A stretch of 64,000 nt of DNA from Desulfatitalea tepidiphila (GTDB taxonomy: Bacteria; Desulfobacterota; Desulfobacteria; Desulfobacterales; Desulfosarcinaceae). The position numbers and the translations under genes are program-made. Positions 38,733 to 41,340 of the stretch are shown here, piece by piece. The DNA lies in assembly GCF_001293685.1 (NCBI RefSeq), contig NZ_BCAG01000006.1, positions 558,001-622,000 of the forward strand. The letters are read 5' to 3'. Each line of letters starts with the position of its first letter. Within the stretch, counting starts at the first letter, position 1. The notes under the pieces were generated by a model. It was given only the letters and a program-made list of their open reading frames with translations, did not search any database and was not told where the DNA came from.

Positions 38733-39275
38733 GTGCCCAAAACAATCAGACACCGGTTCGCTCATATCTGCATACTGGTAAAGGATATCGATGCGGCCAT
38801 CGAACATTGCGCCCGCATCTAAAAAGCAGTGGCACCCCAGTTGCTCGAGGAAAAAGTCGTCAAGAAGGAAGGGCGCATGGGGAATGACCATTATCTGACG
38901 CTATTCTTTCCCGCCACTGGAGATGCCTGCGATATTCAGCTCTTACAGCCGATAAACGCCGATTCGGCTGCCGCGCAGCGATTGGCTGACCATGGAAAGG
39001 GCCTTCACCAAATTGCTTTTACCACGGGCCATCTTGAGGATGCCTTTCGAGAGCTTAAAAAACAGGGTGTGCAGCTGCATGGCGACAATTTCCTCAAGGA
39101 CGGCAGCAACCCGAAGTTGCAACTTGTCTGGATACATCCGAAATACGCTCACGGCGTGCTGATCGAGGTGATGGACGAGTATCGACTGGAGGATGGATTG
39201 ATTAAGGAAATGCAGAGTGCAATCCCAAGTCGGGTAGCTGGTCAAGGTCAAACCGAAGAAGCCTCCGTTTTTTAA
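38733..39275 (+). pseudogene. VOC-family (methylmalonyl-CoA epimerase-like) gene with nonsense codon
   Basis: A frame beginning with GTG 38733 (GAGGAT upstream) gives VPKTIRHRFAHICILVKDID, the first strand of VOC epimerases with a metal-ligand His. It is broken by TAA 38820-38822 and continues in frame as KAVAPQLLEEK through GLHQIAFTTGHLEDAF to the C-terminal HGVLIEVMD, where the other metal ligands lie. A single TTA-to-TAA change explains the stop (RILKAV expected). Because it is TAA and not UGA, selenocysteine does not apply. Restart at GTG 38829 would yield only the later part. Function is probably lost. Confidence 0.75.
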
Positions 39276-39313
39276 AGTGGTACGGATGTGAAGACGCTGA
39301 TGGGGCGGGGTGG

Positions 39314-39583
39314 ATGAAAATGGGCGCTGATAATTGGGTGGTGTATTTGCTTCGGTGTGTGGATGATTCTCTATACTGCGGCATTACAAACGACCTGGAA
39401 AAGCGATTATTGAAGCATAACTCAGGCAAGGGTGCCAAGTATACAAGATCCCGGTTGCCTTTAGTGTTGGTCGGTGTCAGTTCAGAAATGACAAGGAGCG
39501 AGGCATTGAAATTGGAATACCGTTTGAAAAAGACCTCGGCGGCCGACAAGAAAGGTGTATTGGAACGATTGAACCCAGACTGA
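39314..39583 (+). CDS. GIY-YIG endonuclease-domain protein, copy A
   Basis: An 89-residue single-domain GIY-YIG protein of the UPF0213/YhbQ group. The GIY..YIG equivalents are VYLLRCVDDSLYCGITND, Arg in LEKRLLKHN, then KYTRSRLPLVLVG and the Glu in ALKLEYRLK. The active-site Tyr, Arg and Glu appear present. Members are weak or structure-selective nucleases. It is the first gene of a cassette repeated in inverted orientation at 40324-41055. Start ATG 39314; ATG 39320 is possible. Confidence 0.85.
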   Translation: MKMGADNWVVYLLRCVDDSLYCGITNDLEKRLLKHNSGKGAKYTRSRLPLVLVGVSSEMTRSEALKLEYRLKKTSAADKKGVLERLNPD

Positions 39584-39603
39584 TCAAACGAGGTAATGAG
39601 CTG

Positions 39604-39837
39604 ATGCTCCCCAATATCAGTGAGGAAGACTTGGCGACAGACCTTATCTGCCATTGTTTCAATTGCACCGAAGAGGATATTGAACTGGACCTCCGACAAA
39701 ACGGCAAGTCTACCATACTGGAGAAAATCATCGCTGAAAAAAAGCTTGGTGGATGTCAATGCGCTGTTAAAAATCCCAAAGGGCGCTGATGTCTTTCCGA
39801 TGTCCGCCAGGTGGTGGAGAAATTTTTAACTCATTGA
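39604..39837 (+). CDS. BFD-like [2Fe-2S] selenoprotein, copy A (UGA = Sec62)
   Basis: A 77-residue protein if UGA 39787-39789 is decoded. The first part has LICHCFNCTEEDIELDLRQN and GGCQCAVKNPKGR, a BFD-like [2Fe-2S] domain with Cys17, Cys19, Cys51 and Cys53 as likely ligands. Directly after come UGA and CLSDVRQVVEKFLTH, then UGA stop. Relatives read KNPKGR-C-C-L..V at this point, so Sec62-Cys63 replaces a Cys-Cys pair. The second copy keeps the same UGA and the same downstream codons. A hairpin at 39803-39818 fits a SECIS. Likely a small electron-transfer or metal-delivery protein. GAGG lies about 10 bases before the ATG. The Sec call is inferred but well supported. Confidence 0.85.
39803..39818 (+). 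promoter_or_regulatory. SECIS-like hairpin, BFD copy A
   Basis: TCCGCC-AGGT-GGTGGA forms a 6-bp stem (one G-U) with a 4-base loop containing G at position 2. The loop lies 20-23 nt after the UGA, the right distance for bacterial selenocysteine insertion. The same hairpin occurs in copy B. Confidence 0.65.
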
Positions 39838-39873
39838 AATTTAAAAATCAAAAAATCTTCGAGGAATTCTCAC

Positions 39874-40032
39874 GTGCTCCCCAAAATCATCGGCATCATA
39901 TCCGCCATTCTCGCAGTCGGCGTCTATGCCTGCAAATTCAGAGAGACGCCCCTGTGCCGGCCATGAATCATGTTGCCGCTTGGCATCGGCGTCGGGTACG
40001 TTGTGTATTGGATGGTGAGACGGATGATTTAA
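39874..40032 (+). CDS. Tiny two-helix membrane protein with CxxU motif, copy A (UGA = Sec31)
   Basis: GTG start with GAGGAA 8 bases upstream. The frame reads VLPKIIGIISAILAVGVYA (helix 1), a loop KFRETPLCRP, UGA 39964-39966, then IMLPLGIGVGYVVYW (helix 2), ending at TAA 40030. Decoded with Sec it is 52 residues with a CRPU (CxxU) redox motif between two membrane helices. The inverted copy B keeps C28, the UGA and nearly all downstream residues, with mostly synonymous changes. The hairpin 39987-40003 is a SECIS candidate. The alternative is two coupled mini-genes, the second starting at the ATG two codons after UGA. Confidence 0.68.
39987..40003 (+). promoter_or_regulatory. SECIS-like hairpin, membrane peptide copy A
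   Basis: CGGCGT-CGGGT-ACGTTG: 6-bp stem with two G-U pairs, loop 27-31 nt after the UGA. In copy B the same stem is fully Watson-Crick (CGGCGT...ACGCCG), so the pairing is maintained despite base changes. Confidence 0.6.
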
Positions 40033-40112
40033 AAGCATCAATCCTTACCCACTTGGGGTTTTACCCTGATTGATCGTTTCGGTGTTGGGTATTAAAAAGC
40101 AGCCAAAACAAA

Positions 40113-40140
40113 AAGGGCTCAGATCGATCTCTAAGCCCTT
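40113..40140 (+). terminator. Terminator after cassette A
   Basis: AAGGGCT...AGCCCTT, 7-bp stem with a 14-base loop, followed by GTTTTCATTTT. It lies 80 bases past the membrane peptide gene, closing the GIY-YIG/BFD/membrane peptide transcript on the plus strand. Confidence 0.65.
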
Positions 40141-40150
40141 GTTTTCATTT

Positions 40151-40198
40151 TGGTGATCCCAAGGGGATTCGAACCCCTGTTACTGGCGTGAGAGGCCA
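40151..40198 (-). tRNA. tRNA-Glu(CUC) 3' fragment, likely attachment-site remnant
   Basis: Read on the minus strand this is the 3' part of a tRNA-Glu: anticodon loop CTCTCAC with 4 paired bases on each side, a variable loop, a perfect T-arm AGGGG-TTCGAAT-CCCCT, and an acceptor 3' strand TGGGATC followed by ACCA. The 5' half (acceptor 5' strand and D-arm) is absent, and the DNA there is unrelated. Such 3' tRNA fragments are the usual mark left when an integrative element uses a tRNA gene as its attachment site. It is not a functional tRNA. Confidence 0.75.
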
Positions 40199-40323
40199 TT
40201 CCAGTAAGTATCCCGCCTGATTTTATTACCTTTTTTGACCATTAAAATCCGTTTAAGGGAACCAAAAGCCGTCAAAAAAGCCGTCAACTTTGAAGGCGGA
40301 TTTACGGCGTGGTTGAGCTGTTT

Positions 40324-40500
40324 TCATCGTTCGAGACCCATGAAAATAGCTCGTTTCACCACCCAATAAACGGCGTACCCGACGCCGATACCAAGGGGCA
40401 ACATGATTCATGGTCGGCACAGGGGCGTCTCTCTGAATTTCCACGCATAGACGCTGACTGCGAGAATGCCGGATATGATGCCGATGACTTTGGGGAACAT
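40324..40500 (-). CDS. Tiny two-helix membrane protein with CxxU motif, copy B (UGA = Sec31)
   Basis: ATG 40500; MFPKVIGIISGILAVSVYA, loop KFRETPLCRP, UGA 40410-40408, then IMLPLGIGVGYAVYWVV, ending at UGA 40324. Decoded length 58 residues. It differs from copy A by mostly synonymous or conservative changes on both sides of the UGA, which indicates selection on the protein beyond the UGA. The ribosome binding site is weaker than in copy A (GAGATA for GAGGAA). Hairpin 40371-40387 is the SECIS candidate. It is the last gene of the minus-strand HU/GIY-YIG/BFD/membrane peptide row. Confidence 0.65.
40371..40387 (-). promoter_or_regulatory. SECIS-like hairpin, membrane peptide copy B
   Basis: CGGCGT-CGGGT-ACGCCG on the minus strand, perfect 6-bp stem, loop 27-31 nt after UGA with G at loop position 2. 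Confidence 0.6.
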
Positions 40501-40538
40501 GTAAGAATATCTCGAAATATATTAAATTTATAATAATA

Positions 40539-40772
40539 TCAATATGTTATGTATTTTTCCACCACCTGGCGGACATCGGAAAGGCATCAGCGCCCTTTGG
40601 GATTTTTAACAGCGCATTGACATCCACCCATGCGCTTTTCGGAAAGAATTTTCCCCATAATCGTGGACTTGCCGTTTTGTCGCAGATCCAGTTCAATATC
40701 TTTTTCGGTGTAATTGAAACAATAGCAGATAAGGTCTGTCATCAAGTCTTCCTCATTGATATTGGGGAACAT
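40539..40772 (-). CDS. BFD-like [2Fe-2S] selenoprotein, copy B (UGA = Sec62)
   Basis: 77 residues when UGA 40589-40587 is read as Sec. MFPNINEEDLMTDLICYCFN begins the BFD-like domain; GGCQCAVKNPKGR is followed by UGA and CLSDVRQVVEKYITY, then a UGA stop. Compared with copy A, Cys17, Cys19, Cys51, Cys53, Sec62 and Cys63 are kept, while Cys22 is replaced by Tyr, so Cys22 is not an essential ligand. Changes after the UGA are synonymous or conservative (F/Y, L/I, H/Y). The hairpin at 40558-40573 is identical to that of copy A. Confidence 0.85.
40558..40573 (-). promoter_or_regulatory. SECIS-like hairpin, BFD copy B
   Basis: Same TCCGCC-AGGT-GGTGGA hairpin as copy A, loop 20-23 nt after the UGA. 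Confidence 0.65.
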
Positions 40773-40791: not shown

Positions 40792-41055
40792 TCAATCTGC
40801 GTTCAATCGTTCCAATGCAACTATCTTGTCGGCCGCCGAGATCCTTTTTAAACGATACTCCAATTTCAATGCCGCGCTCTTTGTCATTTCGGAACTGACC
40901 CCGACTAACCTCAGCGGCAAACGGGACCTTGTGTATTTTGCGCCCTTGCCGGAATTATGTTTCGATAATCTTTTTTCCAGGTCCTTGGTGATGCCGCAGT
41001 ATAGAGAATCATCCGCACATCGAAGCAAATAGACGACCCAATTATCAGGGACCAT
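40792..41055 (-). CDS. GIY-YIG endonuclease-domain protein, copy B
   Basis: An 87-residue paralogue of the protein at 39314 (NWVVYLLRCADDSLYCGITK, KYTRSRLPLRLVG, ALKLEYRLKR). The nuclease core residues are kept. It starts 3 bases after the stop of an HU/IHF-like gene, so in this copy the nuclease is translationally linked to a DNA-bending protein. Low divergence from copy A suggests a fairly recent duplication with continued selection. Confidence 0.85.
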   Translation of the reverse strand: MVPDNWVVYLLRCADDSLYCGITKDLEKRLSKHNSGKGAKYTRSRLPLRLVGVSSEMTKSAALKLEYRLKRISAADKIVALERLNAD

Positions 41056-41058
41056 GTT

Positions 41059-41340
41059 TCACCCAGCCCGATCCACCCGCTGCTTCAACTCCGTTCCCGC
41101 TTTAAAAAACGGCAGCTTCTTTTGTTTGACGACGACCTTCTCACCCGATCTGGGATTGCGCCCGGCATATGAATCATATGTTTTGATGTGAAACGAGCAC
41201 AGTCCCCGGATTTCAACCCGGTCCCCCTTTTCGAGTGCCTTGGCCATTTCGCCGAAAAATATCTCGACACACTTGGTTGCTTCGGTCTTGGTCAGATTGT
41301 GGGAATCTTGCAGGGCGTGGATAAGTTCGAGTTTGTTCAT
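41059..41340 (-). CDS. HU/IHF family DNA-binding protein
   Basis: A 93-residue histone-like protein, normal length. Recognisable are MNKLELIHALQDSHNLTKTE at the start, EIFFGEMAKALEKGDRVEIRG, and the arm region GRNPRSGEKVVVKQKKLPFF with the intercalating Pro (RNP). It resembles IHF-beta/HU of Desulfobacterota. It bends DNA and may assist recombination of the neighbouring element. It is upstream of GIY-YIG copy B. A 39-residue truncated relative is at 42678. Confidence 0.9.
   Translation of the reverse strand: MNKLELIHALQDSHNLTKTEATKCVEIFFGEMAKALEKGDRVEIRGLCSFHIKTYDSYAGRNPRSGEKVVVKQKKLPFFKAGTELKQRVDRAG

Follow-up and report, generated by a model that had tools for sequence, protein, structure and literature searches.

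Consecutive candidate selenoprotein genes, one of CopZ/BFD type and one of a putative new membrane family, in an inverted duplication of Desulfatitalea tepidiphila

Within a 64,000-nucleotide stretch of the Desulfatitalea tepidiphila genome, the whole of which is referred to as the window, two BFD-like genes on opposite strands are interrupted by a UGA at the same codon, which raises the question of whether this codon ends the protein or encodes selenocysteine (Sec). The two copies are located as follows:

39604–39837, plus strand: BFD-like (CopZ-type) [2Fe-2S] predicted selenoprotein gene, copy 1; 77 codons, UGA codon 62 at 39787–39789
40539–40772, minus strand: BFD-like predicted selenoprotein gene, copy 2; UGA at 40589–40587

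As originally predicted, both frames continue past the UGA for 15 more codons, with the coordinates, the shared UGA (codon 62) and the tails as claimed, and the codon differences between the copies after the UGA are exactly the synonymous (TGT/TGC, GAG/GAA, ACT/ACA) and conservative (F/Y, L/I, H/Y) ones that had been listed. These differences had been taken as a mark of translation; they are present, but comparing two copies proves little, since both lie within an inverted repeat (39210–40022 versus 41168–40352; 818 aligned bases, 83% identity). For this reason, the likeness of the two window copies alone is not evidence of translation. Their location in the arms of such a repeat, together with an identity that does not differ between the two sides of the UGA (85.8% before it, 84.4% after it), is consistent with an alternative reading, in which the UGA is an ordinary stop and the tail is conserved only through recent duplication. 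The additional claim that the tail lacks a start codon does not hold in the strict sense, as two in-frame GTG codons are present (the 8th and 9th after the UGA), which leaves the selenoprotein reading unchanged. Stronger evidence than the two-copy comparison is provided by the sequences of distant homologues, namely by the UGA/Cys column, the tail pN/pS and the covariation of a downstream hairpin. The genome also contains a third BFD-like copy (C3:652467–652697).

The Sec machinery, for which a search had been proposed, is complete in this genome. Profile searches recovered selA (620 bits, cut-off 267.9), selB (374.3 bits, cut-off 242.25) and selD (380.4 bits, cut-off 125), the last of which itself has one in-frame TGA, and tRNA-Sec was found with a score of 73.4 (gathering 47). 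The presence of the machinery is by itself weak evidence, because selA is found in 359 of the order's 389 genomes; with so few genomes lacking it, a test for association between selA and the UGA form had no power. One genome (G285; 96% complete, 750 contigs) carries the UGA form of the BFD gene, yet selA was not found in it. Among 38 large ORFs of the window, 23 end in TGA, 9 in TAA and 6 in TAG; UGA is thus a normal stop here, and a change of the genetic code is not the explanation.

Homologues of the BFD-like protein carry chiefly UGA or Cys at codon 62. A family search matched 13 of 30 genomes in 16 rows, of which all full-length ones (10/16) have an in-frame TGA and the other six are partial matches without it. 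When homologues were aligned by tblastn, UGA followed by C-L stood at the same column in 11/11 close homologues, and Cys-Cys in 5/5 homologues of other lineages, which by their record titles are Bacteroidia, Methanonatronarchaeales, Atribacteria, Sumerlaeota and one deltaproteobacterial MAG. The closest eight homologues outside the genome itself are about 53–70% identical. Ten columns are invariant in 16 aligned rows, including C16, C18, C53, U/C62 and C63. Among the 389 genomes of the order, 130 contain a match (E ≤ 1e-4), with an in-frame TGA in every row above 70 bits among the matches listed. When 365 genomes sampled from the phylum were searched, 68 contained a match (E ≤ 1e-6), and TGA is present in all rows above 70 bits among the matches listed except those of G476 and G443, whose loci read Cys-Cys. 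Eleven fetched loci without TGA have Cys at the Sec position in seven cases and Ser in one, and three gave no motif. The proposal that the UGA stands for the first Cys of a Cys-Cys pair is therefore borne out, with Cys in 5/5 homologues from other lineages and in 7/11 loci without TGA.

Searching 91 fetched loci by motif yielded 58 distinct sequences, 53 with UGA and five with Cys. At the Sec position the motif allows U and C alone, and any other residue would have been missed. The tail is open in 53/53 UGA sequences, for which the motif that collected them selects. Its consensus in these sequences is U-C-[LIV]-x-D-V-[RH]-[QR]-V-V, and second codon positions are the most conserved. In 18 of the 53 sequences, the tail has a pN/pS of 0.414, whereas column shuffling gives a mean of 0.983 and 0/200 shuffles are as low. 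By its substitution pattern, the tail evolves as coding sequence. Relatives with a plain stop and an unconserved tail had been named as evidence that would speak against Sec; on checking, homologues were found to keep the tail as protein. The ordinary-stop reading is contradicted by this low pN/pS in homologues from many families of the phylum, by the Cys that takes the place of UGA in other lineages and by the tail being open throughout, though the collecting motif selects for it; we consider that reading very improbable.

The original prediction also placed a 6-bp hairpin with a G-containing loop 20–23 nt after the UGA. This structure was recovered in both copies as TCCGCC-AGGT-GGTGGA, with its loop at nt 20–23:

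39803–39818, plus strand: SECIS-like hairpin of BFD copy 1; 6 bp, loop AGGU
40558–40573, minus strand: SECIS-like hairpin of BFD copy 2; 6 bp

Across the 53 sequences, the hairpin is paired in 95.0% of cells, with all six pairs in 37 sequences and five pairs in 16. The commonest loop is AGGU (36 sequences), followed by GGGU (12); the SECIS loop of E. coli fdhF also starts with AGGU. Two-sided changes occur in 11 cells (C-G to U-A in eight sequences, C-G to A-U in three), and the covariation score and the count of two-sided cells were reached by 0/500 shuffles, which ignore relatedness. Two of the five covariation measures were not above the shuffles (158/500 and 156/500). These results also bear on the reading that the UGA is read through as a residue other than Sec, by Trp or near-cognate decoding. 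The identity of the inserted residue is predicted from sequence, which leaves some room for such decoding, but the counterpart in homologues is Cys and not Trp, the Sec machinery is complete, a conserved hairpin lies within the expected range after the UGA, and UGA terminates large ORFs of the window as described above; we therefore give decoding as another residue hardly any weight. The selenoprotein reading of both BFD-like copies is well supported by the machinery, the conserved UGA, the Cys counterparts, the tail that evolves as coding and the hairpin.

The predicted BFD selenoprotein is related to several known families. All four cluster-ligand Cys positions of the BFD-like [2Fe-2S] domain are present (C16, C18, C53 and U/C62-C63). 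The best NCBIfam match of the two copies is NF047645 (CopZ_Nterm_CC; 3.4e-14 and 6.3e-15), which covers positions 81–137 of 138 with 53.2 and 55.6 bits, below the cut-off of 100, the N-terminal 80 positions being missing; the BFD proteins would have Sec where this family has its first Cys. NF045877 (CopZ_Nterm_CU, the Csac_0668 family, selenoprotein form 2) shares the same domain and is also a selenoprotein family, but its residue order is C-U, whereas that of the BFD proteins is U-C, and the scores are 29–31 bits against a cut-off of 190. With Pfam Fer2_BFD (PF04324), the copies score 13.6 and 15.1 bits, below the gathering score of 26. The only PDB sequence relative of the BFD profile is 2hu9 (1.1e-6), which we take to be the Archaeoglobus CopZ N-terminal domain. 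Its residues C75, C77, C109 and C118-C119 align with C16, C18, C53 and U62-C63; 2hu9 is a two-domain fragment with Cys-Cys, in contrast to the Sec-Cys predicted here. An AlphaFold model of the BFD protein is small, helical and confident (pLDDT 84.3), and a Foldseek search with it against the PDB gave no match at E ≤ 0.001. By these relationships, the protein would work like a CopZ-type [2Fe-2S] protein and bind a cluster, and Sec62 would sit beside, or be, one of the cluster ligands.

This selenoprotein is of a kind already known, namely form 1 of the CopZ family with a GxUC motif. In Table 1 of a 2026 review, one entry reads “(2Fe-2S)-binding protein (CopZ family) form 1” (cd10141, GxUC; PMC13188914), and PMC9312934 includes this form as well. 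The review's entry refers to PMC2398784 (PMC13188914), in the main text of which a word search found neither CopZ nor 2Fe-2S. Likened by motif, the BFD protein shares the GxUC of form 1 (as K-G-R-U-C) and has a BFD-like Cys framework (PMC13188914). Unlike the listed entry, it is a stand-alone single domain of 77 residues, occurs in three copies in this one genome and lies beside a second UGA-containing ORF.

This second ORF, which we call CRPU after its CRP-U-I motif, is found directly 3′ of each BFD copy:

39874–40032, plus strand: small membrane ORF CRPU, copy 1; GTG start, 52 codons, UGA at 39964–39966, stop TAA
40324–40500, minus strand: CRPU, copy 2; ATG start, 58 codons, UGA at 40410–40408, stop TGA

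The GTG of copy 1 (39874) is preceded by GAGGA. The original prediction is silent on the second UGA-bearing ORF, as it is on the prior listing of the BFD family. A low-confidence prediction (pLDDT 69.0, two rows) places helices of CRPU at 3–23 and 29–51, and the modelled protein is probably a two-helix membrane protein. Diverged copies do not have the ATG needed for an overlapping-frame start (ATGA) at the CRPU UGA, and this reading was rejected on that ground.

An order-wide search matched CRPU in 17 of 389 genomes, with TGA-bearing rows in 11 and weak rows without TGA in six; phylum-wide, it matched 2 of 395 genomes, the genome itself and one weak match without UGA. The codon and hairpin counts for CRPU draw on 18 rows out of the 32 listed, the 14 left out being fragments, degenerate or doubtful. 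The internal codon of these rows is UGA in 17 and TGT (Cys) in one, with no TAA or TAG, and the terminal stops vary among TAA, TGA and TAG. The sole Cys counterpart (C3:652746) is in the same genome and has an uncertain start. Possible Cys homologues in two other genomes (G039 and G611) turned out on reading to be doubtful fragments. Decayed or partial CRPU copies are found in the same genome at C3: 29256, 130130, 653931, 1057594, 1075742, 1076912 and 1098216, several of them within a 40-kb stretch. In two genomes of one family, a 62-residue ORF, very similar in both, lies near CRPU on the opposite strand (L133:6709–6897 and L140:6065–6253).

Downstream of the CRPU UGA, a candidate hairpin of the form GGCGU-loop-ACGC[CU] starts 21 nt after the UGA and is paired in 18/18 rows:

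39988–40002, plus strand: candidate SECIS hairpin of CRPU copy 1; weak, with two G-U pairs, not the lowest-energy hairpin in a scan
40372–40386, minus strand: candidate SECIS hairpin of CRPU copy 2; GGCGU-CGGGU-ACGCC

The energy scan ranked this hairpin best in 15/18 rows and another one in 3/18, including copy 1 of the window. Across the 18 rows, no pair is changed on both sides, and a control slid by +3 covaries more (0.195 versus 0.149); the CRPU hairpin is therefore to be regarded as conserved rather than proven.

CRPU might also be read as a decaying repeat, or as a 30-residue peptide that ends at the UGA. Many copies in the genome are partial or contain stops, all matches but one weak one fall within a single order, hairpin covariation fails to show, and the single Cys copy may be altered at its start, all of which would fit decay. 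Against this, the homologues in G223, G031, G172 and G047, which are 58, 50, 50 and 38% identical to the reference, retain C28, U31, I32, the G-V-G-Y of the tail and their start codons. The tail pN/pS is 0.491 against a shuffled mean of 0.963 (13 of the 18 rows), 0.520 against 1.024 when the hairpin codons are removed, and, for the seven sequences that diverge most, 0.489 against 0.999, with 0/200 shuffles as low in each case. On these values, the CRPU tail evolves as coding. Furthermore, the internal codon is never TAA or TAG, whereas the terminal stops vary. Decay or termination at the UGA thus appears unlikely, though less remote than the two alternatives weighed for the BFD gene.

CRPU, read as a small UGA-containing membrane protein, has no clear counterpart in the collections searched. 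No Pfam family, PF02411 included, matched 15 CRPU members at E 0.01, and no NCBIfam family covers CRPU, for which a single member had a weak hit to a bacteriocin model (0.0062). A search of PHROGs produced one match, also weak (0.022), and no CRPU was found in plasmids and viral contigs. A literature word search for small or transmembrane selenoproteins together with Desulfo returned no paper on such proteins. The mercuric transport protein selenoprotein (PF02411) is a small membrane protein. As listed in Table 1 of the review, the putative mercuric transport selenoprotein (PF02411; C/SxxU) is the small membrane CxxU entry closest to CRPU (PMC13188914). The same table, which by the review's text comprises 119 families or subfamilies, names no CRPU-like entry (PMC13188914); one of its unnamed hypothetical entries may still be related to CRPU despite the lack of a model match. 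CRPU is thus likely to represent a new family of selenoproteins, a candidate that would have been widely missed and that occurs in several families of one order.

Both pairs of genes are preceded by further small genes:

39314–39583, plus strand: GIY-YIG domain gene upstream of BFD copy 1 (PF01541, 1.7e-18)
40792–41055, minus strand: GIY-YIG domain gene upstream of BFD copy 2 (PF01541, 4.6e-18)
41059–41340, minus strand: HU-family DNA-binding protein gene (PF00216, 2.5e-26), first of a four-gene run

This minus-strand run has the order HU, GIY-YIG, BFD-U, CRPU, with gaps of 3, 19 and 38 nt. An HU remnant lies upstream of copy 1 (about 39235–39290), where it overlaps the 3′ end of a glyoxalase-like ORF (38829–39275), and between the repeat arms there is a stretch resembling a tRNA 3′ half (about 40165–40215, minus strand), which was not called by ARAGORN and is possibly an old attachment site. 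GIY-YIG, BFD, CRPU, HU and glyoxalase segments recur in varied combinations in the same genome and in G003, like shuffled cassettes.

Elsewhere, the gene immediately preceding CRPU is HU in G079, where the two abut, and in G223, at a distance of 28 nt; these are two of the 10 regions listed. In G031 CRPU is located between an M48 peptidase and cydA. Around the BFD gene of other genomes, for which 34 regions out of 40 fetched could be placed and 109 of 133 neighbour proteins were scanned, no partner stands out. Among the 25 listed of 103 Pfam families, the commonest neighbours are rhodanese and nitrogenase-type oxidoreductase (four members each), followed by MauE, DoxX, ArsR-type and TetR (three members each). 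Within the genome itself, the BFD-UGA frame of the third copy (C3:652467–652898) lacks a terminal stop and runs in frame into the Cys-CRPU, the ATG of which is out of frame with the joint reading. By joining both in one frame, this copy hints that the BFD and CRPU products belong together.

Taken together, the sequence evidence makes it very probable that two small selenoprotein genes, BFD followed by CRPU, stand one after the other in each arm of the inverted duplication, and it points to actual Sec insertion at either UGA. The hairpin about 13 nt past the UGA would guide SelB with tRNA-Sec to insert Sec at UGA codon 62 of the BFD protein, so that Sec62 would form the first residue of the U-C pair (C-C in relatives) of a 77-residue CopZ/BFD-like protein. 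UGA codon 31 of CRPU would likewise be read as Sec, creating a redox-type C-R-P-U (CxxU) motif between two helices. More tentatively, the pair may work together as a thiol/selenol relay that passes electrons or metal(loid)s between membrane and cytoplasm, a possibility to which we attach limited confidence; a membrane-linked relay is favoured because of the in-frame join of BFD and CRPU and the neighbours of CRPU (HU, M48 and cydA).

The group to which the host belongs is already known for large selenoproteomes (PMC13188914). The BFD form is common in the phylum, with UGA in most strong rows among the matches listed, and gene annotation cuts genes of the BFD and CRPU types at the UGA or omits them. 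Sec beside a [2Fe-2S] ligand would offer a testable case of selenium tuning an iron–sulfur site. If CRPU is real, selenoproteins reach down to two-helix membrane peptides that are invisible to gene callers. If the whole reading is true, two tiny selenoproteins encoded in one operon (HU, GIY-YIG, BFD-Sec, CRPU-Sec) would form a single membrane redox relay.
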